Below are positions 4,790-13,533 of a stretch of DNA of 64,000 nt, piece by piece (position 1 is the stretch's first letter; every line of letters starts with the position of its first letter). The notes beneath the pieces are model-generated. The model worked only from the letters and a program-made list of their open reading frames with translations, was not told where the DNA came from and made no database searches. The DNA comes from an uncultured Pseudomonadales bacterium (GTDB taxonomy: Bacteria > Pseudomonadota > Gammaproteobacteria > Pseudomonadales > Azotimanducaceae): assembly GCA_958296165.1 (NCBI GenBank), contig OY282447.1, positions 3,757,154-3,821,153 on the forward strand, read 5' to 3'. Both the position numbers and the translations under genes were made by a program.

Positions 4790-5606
4790 TCAATGGTCCC
4801 AAAGAGGCCCGATGCCAAGGGGTATGTGCGACAAATCGTAGGCCGGCGATTGCTTGTTCGCGCGGCAGCCGGCGGCGATGTCGCGGGGCGGCACGCAGGC
4901 GTATCTGCAAATGGTGGTCAACCCGCTTGACGCCGCCTCATGGTCGCCCAGCCGTTCGGACGGTCGGCGGCGCGGCGAGAGGACGTGGAGCTCAGGCTGG
5001 TCACGCCGCGGCCGGAACGGCGCCGTGGACTTGCGGAACAGCTCGTCGCGGGCGCGGTTCAGCGACTTGGCGGCCTGCATGTCGGTCTGCGCGGCGGCGG
5101 CGCGGTCGAGGGCGTCGAAGCCTGCGCCTTCCTTGAGGAAGCTGGCGGCGCCGGGCAGCGACTTGAGCTTCTCCAGCGGCGTGAGCACGTCCTCGCGACG
5201 GTAGGTTCGCGGCGCAGGATCTCGCAGGTCGCCAGCCCCGACATCACGCCGAACGCCTCGTCCACCTCCGCCAGCAGCCGGATGTCCGCCGGCGCGTAGA
5301 CCTGCTCGAACGGACGCCGCTGTTCCGCGCCCGCCGATCCGCCACGGCTCCGGCCTCCGCCTGCTGCCGGATCAGCCGGCTGATCTGCGCCGCCGAGAAG
5401 CCGCGCGGCTTGCCGATGTACGCCCGCAAAGGCAGCCCCGGTCGGCGCGGCCCAGCCGGTGTAGCCGAACGCCGCCAGCGTCCGCCGCACGAAGGCGTAC
5501 GCGGACGTGCGATCCTTGGGCTGCAGTCCACAGGCTCGGATCCCTCGACGAAGGCCCGAACCTGCTCCATGGTGCGCAAGCGCTCCGTTTGAAGTGTCAC
5601 GATCAT
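4790..5606 (-). pseudogene. Decayed, internally deleted DDE-type transposase (insertion sequence copy A)
   Basis: The N-terminal coding start at 5606 closely matches the transposase copy at 12030 (both begin MIVT, then a TER...EQVRAFVEGSE pattern). Further conserved pieces appear in different frames: a helix-turn-helix segment (SAAQISRLIRQQAEAG), LLAEVDEAFGVMSGLATCEILRRE, then a C-terminal stretch (TPLEKLKSLPGAASFLKEGAGFD). At least two frameshifts are needed to join them. The central catalytic core with the two Asp residues is missing, so this is an internal-deletion derivative that cannot make an active enzyme. The end repeats at 5640-5692 belong to it. Confidence 0.75.
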
Positions 5607-5639
5607 CCTCCCAGTGTGGAGGACTCAGCGCCCGTTCGT

Positions 5640-5692
5640 GCTCACCTAGCGTTGGACTCAGCCCTTCGGCTCATGCTCACTTAGCGTTGGAC
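5640..5692. repeat. Tandem terminal repeats of insertion sequence copy A
   Basis: A 17-bp unit of the form GCTCACYTAGCGTTGGA occurs at 5640-5656 and 5675-5691, with the same spacing as a matching pair at 12057-12108 beside copy B. The outer copy ends in GGAC and probably marks the element boundary at about 5692. Confidence 0.7.
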
Positions 5693-5788
5693 AGTTCTAC
5701 GCGTTGACACCGCGAGGTTCGGTAGGCACAGTTCGGATCAGGCGGCGCCCAGCGCCGGACTGCTCGCCCGATTGATGGTCGCAACGCC

Positions 5789-7081
5789 TTGGAAGACTTT
5801 TCGGAATATGTCGAGTCGATAGACCAGCTCACAAAGCCTGGCGTAACAATCTCCCCCCTCAAGTGGCGTAACGAACTCGCGCAATGTCTAGACGGCGGAC
5901 CCAATCGGATCCTCCGTCTGCAAGAGCATCAGGCTGACCTCAAGAAGCAAGGAGCCTATTTCACCGGGAACAAGCTGGCCAGACGCGTCGCCAACGTCGC
6001 AACCAAGGACTCGCCCCCGGATGCCCTCTACTACGATCCCGCCTGCGGCGCCGGCGACCTTCTACTAGCAGTCGCAAGGATGCTGCCCGTGGCCACGACC
6101 CTTCAGGGCACGTTGGATGAGTGGAGTACGCGCCTCGCCGGTTGCGACATCTCAGCGGATTTCATCCGGTTGGCTAAGACGCGACTGACCCTGCTAGCCG
6201 CCAAGCGGTGCGGAGTACGCCCTCCTCTGGAACCGTCTACGAGTGCCGACCTATTCCCGGCGATCGTCGAAGCCGACTCCCTTTCCGCCGACCGCCTCGC
6301 CTCTGGTGCCGACGTCATCGTGATGAATCCCCCTTTCGTGTACGCCAATGCGCCGGACGACTGCGACTGGGCCTCGGGGCGCATCAATCTCGCCGCGCTG
6401 TTCGTCGCGCGTGTTCTAAGCGACGTTGCCGTAGGCACACGTATCGTGGCCATCCTACCCGACGTCTTGCGGTCCGGCAGCCGATACGTCGCATGGCGGG
6501 ACATGACACGCGTCCACGGTCTAATACAAGCCGAGCGTTCGCTGGGTGTATTCGACGAGTGGGCAGATGTAGACGTCTATCTCCTACACGTTGTAAAGGC
6601 CGCCGCGCTTCGTAAGACCCAAAAGCCTGCTCAATCCGCCGCCGAACGAACACGCGGCGTTGGCAAACGCTTCCACATACACGTTGGCCCGGTCGTTCCG
6701 CACCGTCATCCCGAAACCGGCCCACTCGCGCCATACCTGCATGCGCGATCGATTCCACCTTGGACCGAATGCGACAGGATCGACGAGACCCGCCAATTCG
6801 AAGGCCGTCTCTTTCGGCCCCCTTTCGTCACCGTGCGCAGGACGTCCAGACCCGACAACGGCAAGCGTGCCGTCGCCACGCTGGTCCTTGGCGAGCGCGC
6901 GGTCGCCGTCGAGAACCACCTTGTCGTCTGCCTTCCCAAGGACGGCGCGCCTGAAACGTGCCGTGAACTCATCCGTCGTCTCCGTTCCCAGAGGACCGAC
7001 GACTGGCTCAACAGGAATCTCCGCTGCAGGCACCTCACCACTCGCCAATTGGCCGAGATACCTTGGTGGAACAAGCCATGA
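5789..7081 (+). CDS. N6-adenine DNA methyltransferase (HsdM/TaqI-like), first gene of a GHKL-REC-MBL operon
   Basis: This 430-residue enzyme should transfer a methyl group from S-adenosylmethionine to adenine in DNA. Motif I DPACGAG lies at about residue 83 and the catalytic motif IV NPPF at about residue 180. The YFTGNKLAR segment before motif I is typical of HsdM-like enzymes. The C-terminal 200 residues may hold a target-recognition region. The only in-frame start is TTG 5789, and the frame is open upstream only to 5726, just inside the insertion-sequence end. The true N-terminus may therefore have been cut off. Its stop overlaps the next gene (ATGA). No restriction nuclease with recognisable motifs is encoded within it. 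Confidence 0.85.
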   Translation: MEDFSEYVESIDQLTKPGVTISPLKWRNELAQCLDGGPNRILRLQEHQADLKKQGAYFTGNKLARRVANVATKDSPPDALYYDPACGAGDLLLAVARMLPVATTLQGTLDEWSTRLAGCDISADFIRLAKTRLTLLAAKRCGVRPPLEPSTSADLFPAIVEADSLSADRLASGADVIVMNPPFVYANAPDDCDWASGRINLAALFVARVLSDVAVGTRIVAILPDVLRSGSRYVAWRDMTRVHGLIQAERSLGVFDEWADVDVYLLHVVKAAALRKTQKPAQSAAERTRGVGKRFHIHVGPVVPHRHPETGPLAPYLHARSIPPWTECDRIDETRQFEGRLFRPPFVTVRRTSRPDNGKRAVATLVLGERAVAVENHLVVCLPKDGAPETCRELIRRLRSQRTDDWLNRNLRCRHLTTRQLAEIPWWNKP

Positions 7082-9144
7082 GCGACGCTCGTCTCAGGTT
7101 CTCCCCCGACATAGTCAGGAGACTCGGCGAGGAGCTCAATCCCACCTTAGACAAAGGCGTCCTCGAACTAGTCAAGAACGCCTACGACGCCGACGCTACC
7201 ACGTGCCGCGTTGAGCTTCGCAACACCGATCAAGCCGGCGGAACTATCATCGTCGAAGACAACGGCGACGGCATGACCGTGGAGCAGATTGTCAACGGAT
7301 GGCTTGTACTCGGGCGTTCCGAAAAATCCACCGCCCAGGAAACCCGACTGGGCCGTATCCCCGCGGGGAGCAAAGGCCTCGGCCGACTTGCCGCCCTCCG
7401 GATGGGTGCCACTGCTCTGTTGGAGACGTCAGCCACGTGCGAACCCGCTTCGAGCCACCGACTGCTCATCGACTGGGACGAATTTGACCGGGCGAATATC
7501 GTCGACGACTTCGCCCTCGACATCCAGACTAATCCTCACAAGAATCAAGTCGGCAGCGGCACCAAGGTCGTCATCGGCAACCTCAAGGCGGGCTTCGGCC
7601 GTGTCCCGGTTAAGCACTTGGCGCGCGAACTGATCATGCTCGCCGACCCCTTCGCGGACGACCCCTCCGGGTTTCGGCCGGAACTCCTTGTGCCCGAGTA
7701 CGACGATCTGGAAGTCCTCGTTCAAAACCGCTATTTCGACGATGCTGAGTACCATCTCCACGCCGAAGTCACCCAAGACGGCTACGCCACCGCCAAGGTC
7801 TCAGACTGGAAGGGCGCCGTCCTATACGAGGCGGGCCACGGACGCCTCTCCAAGTCGAACGGCGGTACGCCGTATGGATGCCCTCGGGCGACCTTTGACC
7901 TCTGGGTGTTCATCCTCAACCAGAAGACGTTCTCCACACGTCAATCCACGGTCGGTGACGTCCGCGAGTGGTTGAGCGAAGTTGGCGGGGTGCACTTCTA
8001 CTATAACGACCTGAGAGTAAGCCCGTACGGCAATCCCGGCGACGACTGGCTCGGCATGAACCTGCGGCGGGCGCAGAGCCCCGAGGAACGTCCCAGCACT
8101 AACACGTCGATCGGCCGCATCACGGTCTTGGACCACAGAGACGACCTCGTACAAAAGACCGACCGATCTGGCTTCATTGAGAACGAGGCGTTCATGCAGC
8201 TTCGTCTATTCGCACGCGACTCCCTTGAGTGGATGGCAGTCCGCCGGCTGGACGACGCCGAGAAACGACGCGAGCAAATACGGACCGAAGCCCCGAAACG
8301 CACAGGTACCGCGAAACGTAGAGTCGAAGAAGCGATCTCGGCAGCGCCGGAGCAAGAGCGCGAGGCAATCCAGCGAGCGTTTTCCTCCTACGAGAGTTCG
8401 CGGGATCGCGAAATCAACGTCCTCCAGCGCGAAGTGCAGCTCTATCGAACGCTCAGTACCGCCGGCATCACGGCCGCCACCTTCGCACACGAGTCCAACG
8501 CCAACCCCTTCAAGATCATCTCGCAGTCCATCGCTGCCATCGAACGACGCACGAAACAGCACGTTGGCGACTTGTACGACAAGCTGTTCAAAGGCCCCAT
8601 AAACGGGACAAAGCGCGCTTTGGGAAGCCTTTCGGTACTCAGCACCGCCACGCTTAGTCTGGTCGACCACGAGAAGCGGCGGACCGCGCGTATCGACCTC
8701 CATGAGTTTATCCACGACGTGCTGAAGACCTACACCCCATTCCTCGAAGGTCGGGACGTCAAGCTCATTGAGCACTTGGCCCCAGGAAACCCGTTTCTCC
8801 GCGGCCAGCCAGCTGCCCTTGAGTCCATCCTCACGAATCTCCTTAACAACAGCATGGCGGCGTTCGAGGACGCCGGAACGAGACATAGGATCATCCAGAT
8901 AGCCTCGCAGCTCTCCGGAGACCGATGGCAACTTTCGGTGAGTGACAACGGCCCCGGCATCGTCGGAATACCGACAGCTGACATCTGGCTGCCGGGCCAG
9001 ACGACCCGAAAGCACGGAACGGGCCTTGGACTCACCATCGTCAGAGATGCAACCAAGGATCTGGGCGGCAGTGTCCACGCTATCGAGAGAGGGGAACTGG
9101 GTGGCGCCGTCATCACCGTCGAACTGCCCATCATCGGAGCCTAG
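7078..9144 (+). CDS. Dual GHKL ATPase: MORC/Hsp90-like N-terminal domain plus histidine-kinase-like C-terminal domain
   Basis: This is a 688-residue soluble protein. The N-terminal GHKL domain shows an N box ELVKNAYDADA (30-40), DNGDGM (61-66) and a GSKGLGRLAALRMG lid (97-110). A middle domain follows, then a coiled coil at about 390-460. A second GHKL domain has FAHESNANP at about 470 in the place of the histidine-kinase H box, ILTNLLNNSMAAF near 585, DNGPGI near 623 and GTGLGLTIVRD near 647. The first half matches the MORC-like ATPases known from restriction islands; the second matches sensor kinases. No membrane segment is present. ATG 7078 overlaps the methyltransferase stop, and a receiver gene follows after three bases, which suggests a phosphorelay. 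I do not know a named family with this whole layout. Confidence 0.85.
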   Translation: MSDARLRFSPDIVRRLGEELNPTLDKGVLELVKNAYDADATTCRVELRNTDQAGGTIIVEDNGDGMTVEQIVNGWLVLGRSEKSTAQETRLGRIPAGSKGLGRLAALRMGATALLETSATCEPASSHRLLIDWDEFDRANIVDDFALDIQTNPHKNQVGSGTKVVIGNLKAGFGRVPVKHLARELIMLADPFADDPSGFRPELLVPEYDDLEVLVQNRYFDDAEYHLHAEVTQDGYATAKVSDWKGAVLYEAGHGRLSKSNGGTPYGCPRATFDLWVFILNQKTFSTRQSTVGDVREWLSEVGGVHFYYNDLRVSPYGNPGDDWLGMNLRRAQSPEERPSTNTSIGRITVLDHRDDLVQKTDRSGFIENEAFMQLRLFARDSLEWMAVRRLDDAEKRREQIRTEAPKRTGTAKRRVEEAISAAPEQEREAIQRAFSSYESSRDREINVLQREVQLYRTLSTAGITAATFAHESNANPFKIISQSIAAIERRTKQHVGDLYDKLFKGPINGTKRALGSLSVLSTATLSLVDHEKRRTARIDLHEFIHDVLKTYTPFLEGRDVKLIEHLAPGNPFLRGQPAALESILTNLLNNSMAAFEDAGTRHRIIQIASQLSGDRWQLSVSDNGPGIVGIPTADIWLPGQTTRKHGTGLGLTIVRDATKDLGGSVHAIERGELGGAVITVELPIIGA

Positions 9145-9147
9145 AAC

Positions 9148-9801
9148 GTGGAATTGCATAACCGTTCCATTTCCCGCGCCATCATCATCGACGACGATCC
9201 TGATGCACGCGAGAGCTACGAGTACGCCATTGAGGAACTCGATCTCCAAGCCCACCCTGTTGAGGGTCCGCTACCCGACGACCTAACGGCATTCATTGCG
9301 GGCCTTCAAGACTCGGATGTCCTCTTGTGCGATTATCATCTTCGGAAGCGCAGCGGCTACGCCACATGCAACGGTGATCGACTCATAGCCGAGTGTTACA
9401 GGGCGAAGGTGCCCGGCGTCCTTTGTACGACTTTCACCGATACGGTGCTTCGACGCGACTACCTCAGGTACATCCCGGGGTTGATCAAAGACAGTAGTCC
9501 CGAGCCGGAGGACCTCACAAAGGCTTGGGACCGCTGTCTAAGCGAACTCGATGGACACTTCGAACCATGGCGGGAACCATGGCGCACCCTCGTACGTGTC
9601 GACGAAGTCGACCACGAGCGTAAATTCATCTACGTCGTCGTGCCACCTTGGCGTGCTCGGCAGAAAGTCCGCATCGACATGGAGAGCCTTCCGCAAGAGA
9701 TACGCCAACGCGTCGCGCCCGACCGCCGCTTTCACGCGATGGTCAACACGGGCGCCGAGAGCCACGAAGACCTCTTTTTCGACAAGTGGGAAACGGAATG
9801 A
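9148..9801 (+). CDS. Response-regulator receiver protein with an unfamiliar C-terminal domain
   Basis: The protein has 217 residues and starts at GTG three bases after the kinase-like gene. Residues 10-120 form a receiver domain with the acidic cluster DDD (15-17), phospho-acceptor Asp62 (LLCDYHL), Thr near 95 (CTTFTDT) and Lys114 (GLIKDS). All residues needed for phosphorylation are present. The C-terminal 95 residues contain no DNA-binding helix-turn-helix that I can see; they look beta-rich (RKFIYVVVP, ARQKVRIDM) and may bind a partner protein. The next gene starts directly after its stop, so receiver and MBL protein are tightly coupled. The likely role is to carry a signal from the dual-GHKL protein to the MBL effector. 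Confidence 0.8.
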   Translation: MELHNRSISRAIIIDDDPDARESYEYAIEELDLQAHPVEGPLPDDLTAFIAGLQDSDVLLCDYHLRKRSGYATCNGDRLIAECYRAKVPGVLCTTFTDTVLRRDYLRYIPGLIKDSSPEPEDLTKAWDRCLSELDGHFEPWREPWRTLVRVDEVDHERKFIYVVVPPWRARQKVRIDMESLPQEIRQRVAPDRRFHAMVNTGAESHEDLFFDKWETE

Positions 9802-10806
9802 ATGGACCCCCCCACTCTTCGCCGTCACCTGTGTTTTCTGGATGTCGGCCACGGGAACTCTACCGTGATTGTAGACGGGACCCAGAACGTCGCTGTAATC
9901 GATGTTGGCAAGCAAAGCGCCCTCTCGCGGTTCCTTGCGGAACAGCAGATCACACGGATCAAGTACGTCTACATTTCCCACGCGGACGAAGACCACATCG
10001 GTGCATTGATCGGGCTGCTCGGCTCTCCACAAATCACCATCGACCACGTCTTCCTTAACTCCGATGCACAGAAGGCGTCCAAAGTTTGGGACGACCTCGT
10101 GTACGAACTCAACGCGGCCCACAGGGTCGGCAAGCTCGTATTCGCGACGAGTCTCACCGCCGGCCAGACCGAGCAGCTGTCGGACCGCGTATCCCTGGAA
10201 GTGCTTGGCCCGAGCCTCTACCTGGCCGCGAAAGGCCCCGGCAGCGTCCACCGGCACGGGGGGCGTATCCGATCCAACTCCATCAGCGCGGTCATCGCCA
10301 TCTCCATTAAGGGCCGACGCCTAGCGCTCGTCCCCGCCGACCTCGACGCTGTGGGGCTACGGGACTTGATGGATAGCGAAGCCAGCCTGGACGCGTCGAT
10401 CCTCGTGTATCCCCACCACGGCGGTCTGCCGGGCGGCATGGAACCGTCCGACTTCGCCAATGCCCTGCTCCCTATGGTAAGGCCGGATAAGGTCATCTTC
10501 TCGATCGGTCGCGGTCGCTACGGCACGCCCAATCCGCTTACTATCTCCTCTATACGCGCCGCGTTTCCGGGTGCCCGCATCGTTTGCACGCAACTCTCCG
10601 AGCACTGTTCTGCGGCCCCTCCCGCCGAACCAGCCGAGGCCCACCTAACGTCAGCGTTTGCCCAAGGTCGTCTCGGTGGCACCTGCTGCGGCGGCACGAT
10701 CGTCGTACCTTTGGACCAATCGAACGCTCTCCAGCCCGATCACCGAGCCCATACGAACTTCATACGGACCCATGTGCAGACACCCCTGTGCTTGCGAAAT
10801 GCGTAG
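9802..10806 (+). CDS. Metallo-beta-lactamase-fold hydrolase (ComEC-like), possible nuclease effector
   Basis: This 334-residue soluble protein carries a ComEC/Rec2-type MBL domain. Visible elements are FLDVGHGNSTVIV at the N-terminus, the metal motif HADEDH (60-65), a D in VPADLD, and PHHGG near residue 210. Proteins of this group are metal-dependent hydrolases, several acting on nucleic acid; no membrane segments are present, unlike ComEC itself. The gene begins at the base after the receiver stop. Within the operon it is the best candidate for the effector. The last 40 residues after the MBL core are low in conserved features, so the natural end could be slightly altered. Substrate is an inference. 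Confidence 0.82.
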   Translation: MDPPTLRRHLCFLDVGHGNSTVIVDGTQNVAVIDVGKQSALSRFLAEQQITRIKYVYISHADEDHIGALIGLLGSPQITIDHVFLNSDAQKASKVWDDLVYELNAAHRVGKLVFATSLTAGQTEQLSDRVSLEVLGPSLYLAAKGPGSVHRHGGRIRSNSISAVIAISIKGRRLALVPADLDAVGLRDLMDSEASLDASILVYPHHGGLPGGMEPSDFANALLPMVRPDKVIFSIGRGRYGTPNPLTISSIRAAFPGARIVCTQLSEHCSAAPPAEPAEAHLTSAFAQGRLGGTCCGGTIVVPLDQSNALQPDHRAHTNFIRTHVQTPLCLRNA

Positions 10807-11208: not shown

Positions 11209-12030
11209 TCACGTCTCGTCCGAGTTCCTAGACGCTGGCGTTCTTGCTCTCGGCCAGGGCGTTGTCGTTGGAGCGTCGCGGACGCGAGCGGGTGAACTCG
11301 GCAGCTTCTCCAGCAGGTCGGCGACCGCGTGGTTGACGCATTCGGAGCCGTTGTCGGCGTGGAAGCCCTTGATCGCGAAGGGGAAAAGGCCGAGGAGGCC
11401 CTCCAGCACCGGGATCAGGAAACGCTCCGAAATGGCCTCGGTCGCGCCCACGAACTCGTACTGGGCGGCCTCGTCGACCAGGTTGATCTCGTAGACGCCC
11501 TTGCGTCCGTCGAGGTCGCCCTGGTGGACGGAATCCACCCGCACGAAGCCGGGCCGCCCTTCCTGGCGCTCGTAGGTCCTGGACTTGCGCAGGTTGTAGA
11601 GGCGGGCGTCGCCGAACACCTCGAACTCGCGCCGCATCACCGCCCGCGTCGCCTGGCCGCAGACCTGCCCCGGCGTCTCGTCCACCTCCGCCAGCAGCAC
11701 CGCGTCGACCGCCGCGTAGCGCCGCGCGAACGGCTTCGCCGGCGCGCCGCCACGGCGATCCTCGATCCGACCCGTCCCCGCGCGCTGCCGGATCAGCCGC
11801 GTCAGCTGCGCCCGCGACAGCCCCGTGGCCTTGGCCAGGAACCGCTTCGCCAGCCCCTTGTCCGCCCTGCCCAAAGTCCCGTAGTCGAACTCGCCAGCAT
11901 GCGCCGCACGAAGTCGTTCCGCGAGCCCCGGTCCGAACCGACGAAATCCAAACACTCGCTGCCTTCGACGAAGGCGCGCACCTGTTCCAAGCTCGAAAGC
12001 CGCTCGGTGGCCATTGTCACGATCATCCTC
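11209..12030 (-). pseudogene. Frameshifted DDE-type transposase (insertion sequence copy B)
   Basis: The gene starts at ATG 12030 and runs about 125 bases before a frameshift near 11905, where the remainder continues in another frame. The helix-turn-helix (SRAQLTRLIRQRAG), LLAEVDETPGQ, an Asp in VRVDSVHQGD and a second Asp in GFHADNGSE are preserved in the 11209-11955 frame. The expected Glu motif (AESKN) falls in a third frame near 11240. The C-terminus beyond this is missing. It is the less decayed relative of the copy at 4790-5606 and points the same way, so the two copies bracket the methyltransferase operon like the arms of a composite transposon. Confidence 0.78.
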
Positions 12031-12056
12031 CGATGATCCCGAATCCGCCCCTTTAG

Positions 12057-12109
12057 GCTCACTTCTCGTTGGAATCGACCTCCCGCTTTAGGCTCACTTC
12101 TCGTTGGAC
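12057..12109. repeat. Tandem terminal repeats of insertion sequence copy B
   Basis: Two identical 17-bp units GCTCACTTCTCGTTGGA lie at 12057-12073 and 12092-12108, with the same 35-bp period as the pair at 5640-5691. They mark the right end of copy B at about 12109. Confidence 0.72.
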
Positions 12110-12245
12110 ATGTATGGTCCGCCCCGCGTTTGCAAGGAGCGAGTTGTTGGCGATTGCCGAGATAAGGGTCAGTTGCTGACATGTATTCGGCCTCTCGACG
12201 GAAGCAAACGCTCCCGGGCCCTGATGGGTTCCGCGCGCGCCCGCC

Positions 12246-13448
12246 TCAACAAGACGACGGTCTCGAAGACCTTTGTCCAACGCAGGCTCCTGGCGCGCCG
12301 GTCCGACCTGTCTCGCCATCACTTCCAACTTCACTCCGCGCAACCGTTCGCGGCCCGTGCCGCCCGGAAGTCTTCCGTGTCCAAATGCGCCGCCGGCGGT
12401 TCGCCGGTTCCCAGGCCGCCTTGCCGACGTGGCCGGCGTCGAAGTCCGTCTCGCCGGCCAGCAGCGCCCACGCGGTTCGAGCGTTCTTGTTGGCCAGCGC
12501 GACCGCCGCCACGTTCGCGCCGCGCCGCTCCTGCAGATCCAACACCCAGCGGCTGCGCCGGTCGTCGCGCTTCGCCGCCGTGCGCAGCGCCGACCTCGCG
12601 CCGTGGATCATCAGCGTCCGCAAGTGCCGGTCGCCGCGCTTGCCGATCCCCGGCAGCGTCGGCTTGCCGCCGGTTGTGCGCTGCCGCGGCACGAGGCCCA
12701 GCCAGGCCGCCAGCTCGCGTCCGTTGCGGAACTCCGCCGCATTCCCCACCGTCGCCGCCAGCGCCGTGGCCGTCAGCGGCCCGATGCCCGGAATCGCCTG
12801 CAGCCTCCGGCACGCCGGCGTACGCCGGGCGATCTCCCCGATGCGCGCGTCGAACTCCTTCACGCGGTCGTCCAGCCGCCGCAGTTCCTCGCCCAGCTCC
12901 CGCAGCAGCCCGCGCGCATCGAACGGAACCTCGTTCTCCGCGTCCTCGAGAACCTCCGGCAGCCGGCGCAGCACCGCGCCCACCCCCTTCGAGGACTCGA
13001 TCCCGTACTCCAGCAGGAAGCCGTGGATCTGGTTGCACTGCGCCGTCCTCGCCTTCACCGCCAGCTGCCGCGCCCGATGCGTCTGCTGCGCGCACTGCCG
13101 ATCCACGTCCTTCACGCCCACGAAGCGCATCGTCGGCCGGCACGCCGCCTCCGCGATGCCGTCCGCGTCGTTGGCGTCGTTCTTGTTCGACTTGACGTAC
13201 GGCGACACGAACTGCGGACTCATCAGCAGCGCCCTGTGCCCCAGCCGCGACGCCAGACGGCCCCAGCGATGCGCGCTCCCGCACGCCTCCATCGCCACCT
13301 CGCAGCCCGCCGGCAGCTTCGCCAGATAGGACTGCAGGCCCGAGCGCCGCAGCCGCTTGCGCTCGACGATCCCTCCCTTCGCGTCCGCCGCCGTGACGTG
13401 GAAGACCCGCTTGCCCAGATCCACGCCAATCCGTCTGATCTCGTTCAT
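12246..13448 (-). CDS. IS110-family transposase
   Basis: This is a 400-residue DEDD-type transposase/recombinase. The N-terminal RuvC-like domain begins MNEIRRIGVDLGK and contains AMEACGSAH and NKNDANDADGIAEA. A coiled linker follows, then the Transposase_20 domain with AIPGIGPLTATALAA near residue 218 and GGKPTLPGIGKRGDRHLR. IS110 enzymes move by a bridge-RNA-guided reaction; the structured stretch just upstream (13464-13533) is the candidate RNA site. ATG 13448 is chosen because it starts at the conserved domain; an in-frame start at 13484 adds only unconserved residues. The C-terminal 55 residues look non-conserved and may read past the ancestral stop. Related fragments occur at 35.4 and 36.9 kb. 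Confidence 0.88.
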   Translation of the reverse strand: MNEIRRIGVDLGKRVFHVTAADAKGGIVERKRLRRSGLQSYLAKLPAGCEVAMEACGSAHRWGRLASRLGHRALLMSPQFVSPYVKSNKNDANDADGIAEAACRPTMRFVGVKDVDRQCAQQTHRARQLAVKARTAQCNQIHGFLLEYGIESSKGVGAVLRRLPEVLEDAENEVPFDARGLLRELGEELRRLDDRVKEFDARIGEIARRTPACRRLQAIPGIGPLTATALAATVGNAAEFRNGRELAAWLGLVPRQRTTGGKPTLPGIGKRGDRHLRTLMIHGARSALRTAAKRDDRRSRWVLDLQERRGANVAAVALANKNARTAWALLAGETDFDAGHVGKAAWEPANRRRRIWTRKTSGRHGPRTVARSEVGSDGETGRTGAPGACVGQRSSRPSSC

Positions 13449-13463
13449 GGTTCGCTCCGTTGG

Positions 13464-13533
13464 TTGATGGGAAACCCACGTCATTCTGGCCTCCGAGGCC
13501 GCGCGAGTGAAGCGGGGCGGACCATCCCATCAA
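13464..13533 (-). ncRNA. Candidate IS110 bridge-RNA region
   Basis: Directly upstream of the IS110 transposase start lies a non-coding stretch. Its outer arms form an 8-bp perfect inverted repeat (13464-13471 with 13526-13533) that encloses a GGCCTC/GAGGCC hairpin at 13488-13500. IS110-group elements carry their bridge RNA in this position. The loop-guide pairing cannot be verified without the target site, so only the location and fold support the call. Confidence 0.4.

Follow-up and report, generated by a model that had tools for sequence, protein, structure and literature searches.

The window analyzed here, 64,000 nucleotides from an uncultured Pseudomonadales bacterium (assembly GCA_958296165.1, contig OY282447.1, positions 3,757,154 to 3,821,153, forward strand), carries at positions 5789-10806 an operon of four plus-strand open reading frames (ORFs) that encode, in this order, an N6-type DNA methyltransferase (MT), a histidine kinase with two GHKL-type ATPase domains (HK), a receiver protein (REC), and a ComEC-type metallo-beta-lactamase (MBL) (Table 1). 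Pfam found N6_Mtase, two GHKL domains at separate places of a single protein, a receiver at low significance that the fold searches support, and Lactamase_B, so that the methyltransferase, dual-GHKL, receiver, and MBL identities given in a preliminary description of this DNA were borne out. The same holds for the close packing noted there (an ATGA overlap, a three-base gap, and no gap): the measured intergenic spacings are -4 bases for MT/HK, +3 for HK/REC, and 0 for REC/MBL.

The four proteins

ORF calling for HK also gives an earlier TTG start, at 7063. Both HATPase families were detected by Pfam in 16/16 aligned HK sequences, all of which also keep E30, N34, D37, D61, G63, G65, and K99-R103 in the ATPase half and N587, N591, D623, G627, G649, and G651 in the kinase half, where the H-box, N-box, and G-boxes are retained. 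The motifs ELVKNAYDADA, DNGDGM, and GSKGLGRL of the N-terminal part are the signature of MutL/MORC-type ATPases. Profile searches matched this part to MORC3 (1.8e-6), MORC2, and MutL, and residues 443-684 to solved histidine kinases, e.g., ZraS (2e-21); PADLOC found a resemblance of the N-terminal part to type II restriction enzymes (1e-13). As predicted from these motifs and profiles, HK is a MORC/MutL-like ATPase joined to a histidine kinase half.

Pfam matched REC to Response_reg at 0.0028, below the family cutoff. Its AlphaFold2 model (pLDDT 94) aligned in VIA with Rv1626 at Z 12.8 and with CheY at about 12, and Foldseek listed mostly receivers below a top row for an RpiR sugar isomerase domain (1e-4); because the fold searches support a receiver fold, we regard REC as a receiver despite the subthreshold Pfam score. 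The acidic pair D15 and D16 is invariant together with D62 in 17/17 sequences, and Thr/Ser is likewise found in all 17. In the model, the C-terminal tail has the strand order b1-b2-b3-a-b4-b5, as in an OB fold. Viral Foldseek rows of about 70 to 80 columns included one S1-motif protein (E 0.03) and one CSD/cold-shock protein (0.08), along with phage minor tail proteins and unnamed proteins; as the listing comes without residue ranges, it is by inference that we assign these short rows to the tail, which is possibly an OB-like domain, judging from the model. VIA, searched with the full-length model, returned no row for the tail alone, which is not evidence of a new fold. Among the 17 REC sequences, Pfam gave no DNA-binding output domain, and PADLOC gave no resemblance for REC.

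MT starts with TTG, which aligns with the ATG start of the closest relative (L009). Motif I, which reads DxxCGxGDLL, and NPP(F/Y) are intact in 11/11 aligned sequences, with D83, C86, G87, G89, N180, P181, and P182 invariant, and the nearest solved structures by profile are M.BseCI (5e-11) and then the EcoKI M subunit (type I M subunits). MT thus looks like a DNA N6-adenine methyltransferase with intact motifs, as far as sequence comparison can tell. PADLOC related it to type II methyltransferases and to mad2 of the MADS system (2e-11); its scan of the operon proteins gave no MAD model for HK, REC, or MBL.

A profile match linked MBL to ComEC (1e-17), and its structure model (pLDDT 88) aligned in VIA with the ComEC domain 9ic4 at Z 27.2 (rmsd 2.9, 252 residues aligned), followed by Pce (Z 21.4) and RNase J (16.4). 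H60, D62, D64, H65, and D180 of MBL align with H598, D600, D602, H603, and D700 of ComEC, and H205 aligns with H725, while the position of ComEC S728 is taken by G208. The beta-lactamase-like domain of ComEC is a metal-dependent nuclease (PMC8579336); as given in PMC12455585, H598, D600, D602, H603, and D700 are its metal ligands and H725 is a putative DNA-binding residue, and exchange of the ligands for alanine left most mutants virtually inactive, with D600A about fivefold lower. By its model, MBL is of the ComEC nuclease type with the active-site ligands kept, and is a predicted nuclease. The 334-amino-acid (aa) ORF, for which Pfam gives only MBL families, contains no competence membrane channel. 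The invariant cysteines and histidine of its C-terminal part could form an extra zinc site. PADLOC matches of MBL were to LmuA, RTasMBL, and PDC-M48B, at 1e-8 and weaker. A known PADLOC system was considered for the operon and rejected, as there were only single-protein resemblances across it, and among the NCBIfam matches listed for the operon proteins, none was near a cutoff.

Table 1. Positions of the operon genes, their predicted functional parts, and the flanking repeats in the window
Feature	Position	Strand	Basis
MT, N6-type DNA methyltransferase, 430 aa	5789..7081	+	ORF; Pfam N6_Mtase 4e-8
MT catalytic NPPF, residues 180-183	6326-6337	+	Motif reading
HK, dual-GHKL histidine kinase, 688 aa	7078..9144	+	ORF from ATG of ATGA overlap; two HATPase domains
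HK N-terminal MORC/MutL-like GHKL ATPase domain, residues 25-142	7150..7503	+	HATPase_c_3 7e-20
HK predicted phospho-histidine H471, FAHE H-box	8488..8490	+	Invariant in 16/16
HK C-terminal HATPase_c kinase domain, residues 577-684	8806..9129	+	HATPase_c 2e-21
REC, receiver protein, 217 aa	9148..9801	+	ORF; AlphaFold2 model; fold search
REC predicted phospho-acceptor D62	9331..9333	+	Invariant in 17/17
REC C-terminal domain, residues 137-217, possibly OB-like	9556..9798	+	Secondary structure of model
MBL, ComEC-type metallo-beta-lactamase, predicted nuclease, 334 aa	9802..10806	+	ORF; Lactamase_B 1e-8
MBL metal motif H60-x-D62-x-D64-H65	9979..9996	+	Invariant in 16/16
MBL D180	10339-10341	+	Invariant in 16/16
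MBL H205	10414-10416	+	Invariant in 16/16
MBL C-terminal part with invariant C262, C269, C296, H317, C330	10585..10791	+	16/16 sequences
Insertion sequence (IS)-like element remnant, upstream of operon	5254..5693	.	IS label by reading
Diverged copy of same IS-like element, downstream of operon	11674..12110	.	IS label by reading

Conservation, spread, and co-inheritance

Scanning a genome collection with HK gave 32 loci; 16 of these, L009-L024, are relatives at 38-67% identity that are either complete or cut by a contig end. Three plasmids and six viral contigs, two of them near-duplicates, added eight distinct loci and brought the total, with the window, to 25. Left out were L026-L040 (partial matches to generic GHKL or kinase domains), L025 (27% identity, which reads as a C5-methyltransferase set without MBL), L067 (a repeat of L066), and L080 (which a contig edge reduces to MBL and part of REC). 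HK, REC, and MBL are colinear in 25/25 loci, which rules out a chance neighborhood; REC of L024 was placed through position and alignment rather than by tblastn, L018 is cut at a contig edge, and L045 and L068 have interrupted genes (in L068, the HK and REC frames). MT is adjacent in 17/25, in operon order in 15 and divergently transcribed in the two Streptomyces loci, and the eight loci that have no homologous MT next to them include one at a contig edge. According to record titles or taxonomy lines, the hosts belong to eight phyla (Gemmatimonadota, Planctomycetota, Bacteroidota, Verrucomicrobiota, Actinomycetota, Cyanobacteriota, Thermodesulfobacteriota, and Pseudomonadota). The co-occurrence of the four families in other genomes, proposed earlier as a check, is thus found throughout for three of them and in most loci for MT. 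On the Pseudanabaena plasmid (L045:10833-12786), the MBL gene is split by an IS982 element.

Pairwise distances across 22 loci, with the cut or interrupted L018, L045, and L068 set aside, correlated strongly for HK-REC (r 0.96), HK-MBL (0.94), and REC-MBL (0.93), and MT distances correlated with those of HK, REC, and MBL at r 0.67-0.78 (17 loci); none of 2000 permutations reached any of the observed values. When 72,556 plasmids were searched with REC, the matches were exactly the 3 plasmids that carry this HK, and the same 3 ranked first for MBL (37-44% identity), followed by nine ComEC proteins (23-26%). MT had four plasmid matches, two on these HK plasmids and the others on plasmids of Klebsiella variicola and Rhizobium phaseoli, each of which has a divergent dual-GHKL kinase in the vicinity. 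Based on the distance correlations and the reciprocal plasmid searches, HK, REC, and MBL are the core of the set and MT is a looser partner.

The HK tree mixes phyla, with the window grouping with one Gemmatimonadota and one Bacteroidota locus. At E 1e-60, HK was absent from all 57 other close relatives of the host genome, 15 of them of the same genus, and was found in 2/398 genomes of the host's phylum, its own included, in a search that scored two candidates per listed genome and may miss rare members; the other genome holds L062, which reads as a C5-methyltransferase set. The IS-like copies on the two sides of the operon are 69.6% identical over 454 columns and lie in the same orientation, and just 3' of the operon region an ORF at 12246-13484 (minus strand) reads like an IS110-type transposase gene. 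Because the HK tree mixes phyla, the close relatives have no HK, and IS-like copies stand on both sides, we read the operon as having probably spread horizontally. The HK gene had no DNA-level match in complete Escherichia coli genomes. It matched 7 phage records, with two long matches at 24-27%, and 639 plasmid records to some extent, 17 of them at 80% coverage, 3 of which are this family; 15 plasmid and 3 phage stretches from these searches, and one further plasmid, were read. Phage PhiR44_1 (L049:5001-6959) has a gene annotated paraMORC3 next to one annotated Dcm.

Divergent loci and neighboring genes

Beyond this family, we examined 17 divergent dual-GHKL loci (L025, L046, L047, L050-L062, and L081), mostly 21-29% identical to the window HK; L048 and L049, with an N-terminal match only, were not counted. 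In four of them, from Klebsiella (L058), Deinococcus (L046), Salipiger (L051), and Ensifer (L053), the receiver-like gene is followed by an HNH gene, with Pfam scores of 3.4e-4 (just under the cutoff), 3.8e-10, 5.7e-5, and 1.4e-5, respectively. The gene between kinase and HNH matched the REC profile in hhalign at 92% in L058, 93% in L053, and 66% in L051, and the L051 and L053 receiver-like genes are 47% identical. L058 has an MT of the same family as that of the window and an interrupted kinase; L051 and L053 have a methyltransferase gene 3' of HNH. Some divergent loci adjoin C5 methyltransferases, and one has a Vsr gene. Cutters and markers that vary around a kinase-receiver pair are what a restriction-modification (R-M)-like module would look like. 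The host genome itself holds a second divergent dual-GHKL set (L061, C1:720500-738500), with a kinase at 7951-10215 (minus strand) homologous to the window HK over its full length, a 362-aa protein with a subthreshold receiver match, and neighbors that read as two methyltransferases, one of them of the C5 type, and a large helicase.

Of nine flanking proteins scanned around the cyanobacterial sets, four were not recognized; the others were two integrases, an elongation factor, an AAA ATPase, and a Cap17-TIR protein. In Nostoc, a phage-type integrase and a Cap17-like TIR protein (L019:6822-7454 and L019:11860-13215) flank the set, and in L022 an integrase adjoins it. On the Burkholderia aenigmatica plasmid, a gene annotated as anti-phage-associated helicase HerA (L043:1-128) lies about 6.5 kb upstream of the set. 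On the viral contig L068, a C5 DNA methylase gene (11725-13254, minus strand) converges on the MBL gene, and there is no N6 MT of this family.

Proposed function and alternatives

The gene set, the catalytic residues, the folds, the co-inheritance, and the different nuclease that some relatives have in this slot are observed in sequences and models. On balance, they make it somewhat more likely than not, in our judgment, that the operon is a mobile R-M-like defense module in which a His-Asp phosphorelay gates the nuclease. We infer each signaling and cleavage step, phosphotransfer included, as well as the DNA trigger and the role in defense. MT would methylate host DNA at N6 as a self mark, and HK would clamp or sense DNA via its MORC/MutL-like ATPase half; that DNA or its methylation state may be the signal for HK is suggested by the MORC/MutL kinship together with the MT partner. 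An unmarked or invading DNA state would lead to autophosphorylation of HK at H471, and the phosphate would pass to D62 of REC. Phosphorylated REC might then bind MBL and complete the nuclease, with the invariant Cys/His cluster of MBL as a conceivable docking site; the possibly OB-like tail of REC could contribute DNA binding and so turn a weak stand-alone MBL into an efficient nuclease. In its most specific form, this would be true phosphorelay restriction, in which a MORC-type ATPase-kinase phosphorylates a receiver-OB adaptor that assembles a ComEC-like OB plus MBL nuclease in trans, with cutters exchangeable between MBL and HNH and methyltransferases between N6 and C5; we put this form forward tentatively, as possible rather than probable.

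Several observations weigh against this picture. The usual receiver Lys is present in only 4/17 REC sequences. The OB-like call for the REC tail derives from the order of its strands and from two weak viral rows, which stand beside rows for tail and unnamed proteins, and a sequence-profile search with the tail matched the engineered PDB proteins OR276 and OR277 at 5e-5 and, beyond these, nothing under 0.1. An added OB domain did not speed up the ComEC nuclease in solution (0.26 to 0.29 per min, PMC12455585), so that tight binding between REC and MBL would be needed, and the ComEC domain is naturally located outside the membrane (PMC8579336), so that a cytoplasmic role of MBL would be a transfer of function. 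Among the divergent loci, 13/17 have no HNH gene after the receiver; in the plasmid loci L050, L054, L055, and L057, the kinase is followed instead by an unnamed gene of about 640 to 680 aa. In L046, the similarity of the receiver-like gene to the REC profile is weak (11% in hhalign; Pfam Response_reg 0.002, under the cutoff). No member of the MT family adjoins any of the six cyanobacterial sets, and none turned up when the five cyanobacterial genomes, the Pseudanabaena plasmid, the genome of L018, and the record of L068 were searched with its profile (E 1e-15); self-marking with this MT therefore does not hold for every set. The cyanobacterial clade may either use other methyltransferases, possibly further off, or have a core that works without self-marking.

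A PADLOC test of the flanks (1e-20), with ORFs called greedily by length, covered 94 of 163 called proteins (the nearest six or fewer per locus, at least about 170 aa, 17 loci) and 92 of 102 called control flank proteins (the ten shortest omitted by hand). The flanks of the set matched 95 models versus 13 for the controls. Type I specificity models account for 13 of the 25 flank models listed; each of them had a single matching member, which may be one and the same protein. Because the count is of models and not of proteins, the enrichment near defense genes, which the preliminary description had named as a check, is suggestive only. That description had also read the locus as a signal-controlled restriction or defense system in which the methyltransferase marks self, the GHKL protein senses, the receiver relays, and the MBL cuts. 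The general idea is partly supported by the conservation of the set over phyla, the MT type, the MORC/MutL-kinase architecture, the ComEC-type MBL, and the HNH gene in 4/17 divergent loci, while a strict mark-self/cut-foreign scheme does not fit the cyanobacterial sets and genomes that have no MT of this family.

Loci from which MT is missing would also suit a phosphorelay-controlled suicide mechanism (abortive infection), in which the relay would free MBL to act on host nucleic acids and MT would modulate or protect part of the genome: REC and MBL would be workable without MT, and the sections of PMC12455585 consulted give no sequence specificity for the ComEC domain. We consider this explanation unlikely, since the MT family is present in 17/25 loci, the divergent Streptomyces arrangement included, and a C5 methylase gene adjoins the set of L068. 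The operon could, alternatively, serve regulation, as a two-component module linking methylation to the control of genes or to repair, with MBL acting as a phosphodiesterase or nucleotide hydrolase and not as a DNase. The MBL fold does occur in esterases and phosphodiesterases (Pce was second in VIA, and Apyc1 was also matched); such a role is nevertheless quite improbable, given that REC has no output domain for DNA binding known to Pfam, that the ComEC nuclease domain is nearest to MBL by a wide margin, and that HNH genes follow receiver-like genes in 4/17 divergent loci.

It also seems improbable that the operon is simply a member of the published R-M-linked HEF_HK/Response_reg_2 family, even though, as that family is described in PMC8011034, HK shares with it the order of HATPase_c_3, H-box, and HATPase_c and has a receiver and a methyltransferase adjacent, and the divergent set L061 in the same genome has a kinase homologous to HK over its full length. 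Hmmscan of the 16 HK and 17 REC sequences listed neither of the corresponding Pfam models, PF19191 and PF19192, but these models did not match any positive control either, and whole-genome searches with them gave nothing anywhere, divergent loci included. An MBL is not named in the main text of PMC8011034. The reading as a phosphorelay-gated, R-M-like defense module is the one that we retain.

If correct, this reading joins phosphorelay signaling to DNA restriction, two fields rarely in contact, and places the nuclease fold of competence in the service of defense. A cutter would be able to remain inactive until an invader is signaled by a DNA-sensing kinase, and this could account for how a nuclease of low specificity does its host no harm. 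The dual-GHKL kinases that adjoin methyltransferases, for which the 2021 description settled no function, would gain a working role. As the module is small, self-contained, and present in eight phyla, a direct test in E. coli is feasible.

Comparison with known systems

Two-component-type signaling in phage defense is known from Detocs, where the effector is fused to the receiver; MBL of the present set, in contrast, has no receiver domain according to Pfam. The closest counterparts are the R-M-linked, two-component-like HEF_HK/Response_reg_2 pairs reported in 2021 with their function left open (PMC8011034). Like the window set, these combine a kinase of HATPase_c_3, DHp, and HATPase_c domains with an adjacent receiver in an R-M neighborhood; the neighborhoods given there contain Vsr, HNH, and conspicuous C5 methyltransferases, whereas in the present set the MT is of the N6 type and a ComEC-type MBL is always present, and neither lactamase nor MBL occurs in the main text of that paper. 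ParaMORC ATPases in R-M operons were described in 2008 (PMC2292703) and resemble HK in that a MORC/MutL-like GHKL ATPase stands beside methyltransferases and nucleases. HK differs from them in being fused to a histidine kinase half with its own receiver, in a four-gene set without a helicase gene, and that paper uses none of the words receiver, two-component, and lactamase.

In the GHKL-Shedu protein VcSduA (paraMORC3), an N-terminal GHKL ATPase and a nuclease domain are both required for anti-phage activity; its nuclease, of the PD-(D/E)xK kind, is part of the same chain, and no kinase half, receiver, or MT is described in the passages of PMC12137116 consulted. With the ComEC domain, MBL shares the fold, the HxDxDH motif, equivalents of D180 and H205, and a possible OB partner (PMC12455585 and PMC8579336), but MBL is a stand-alone ORF next to a receiver, with no membrane channel, with G208 for S728, and with invariant C-terminal Cys/His residues. 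The passages of PMC12839542 and PMC7159879 consulted contain no such set, and none with a ComEC-type MBL was described among the papers listed by searches of the open-license PMC literature. The statement in the preliminary description that the four-part set has no name is partly wrong: R-M-linked double-GHKL kinase-receiver pairs and paraMORCs in R-M operons are known from these earlier reports (PMC8011034 and PMC2292703), and what did not turn up in these searches is the set with a ComEC-type MBL.

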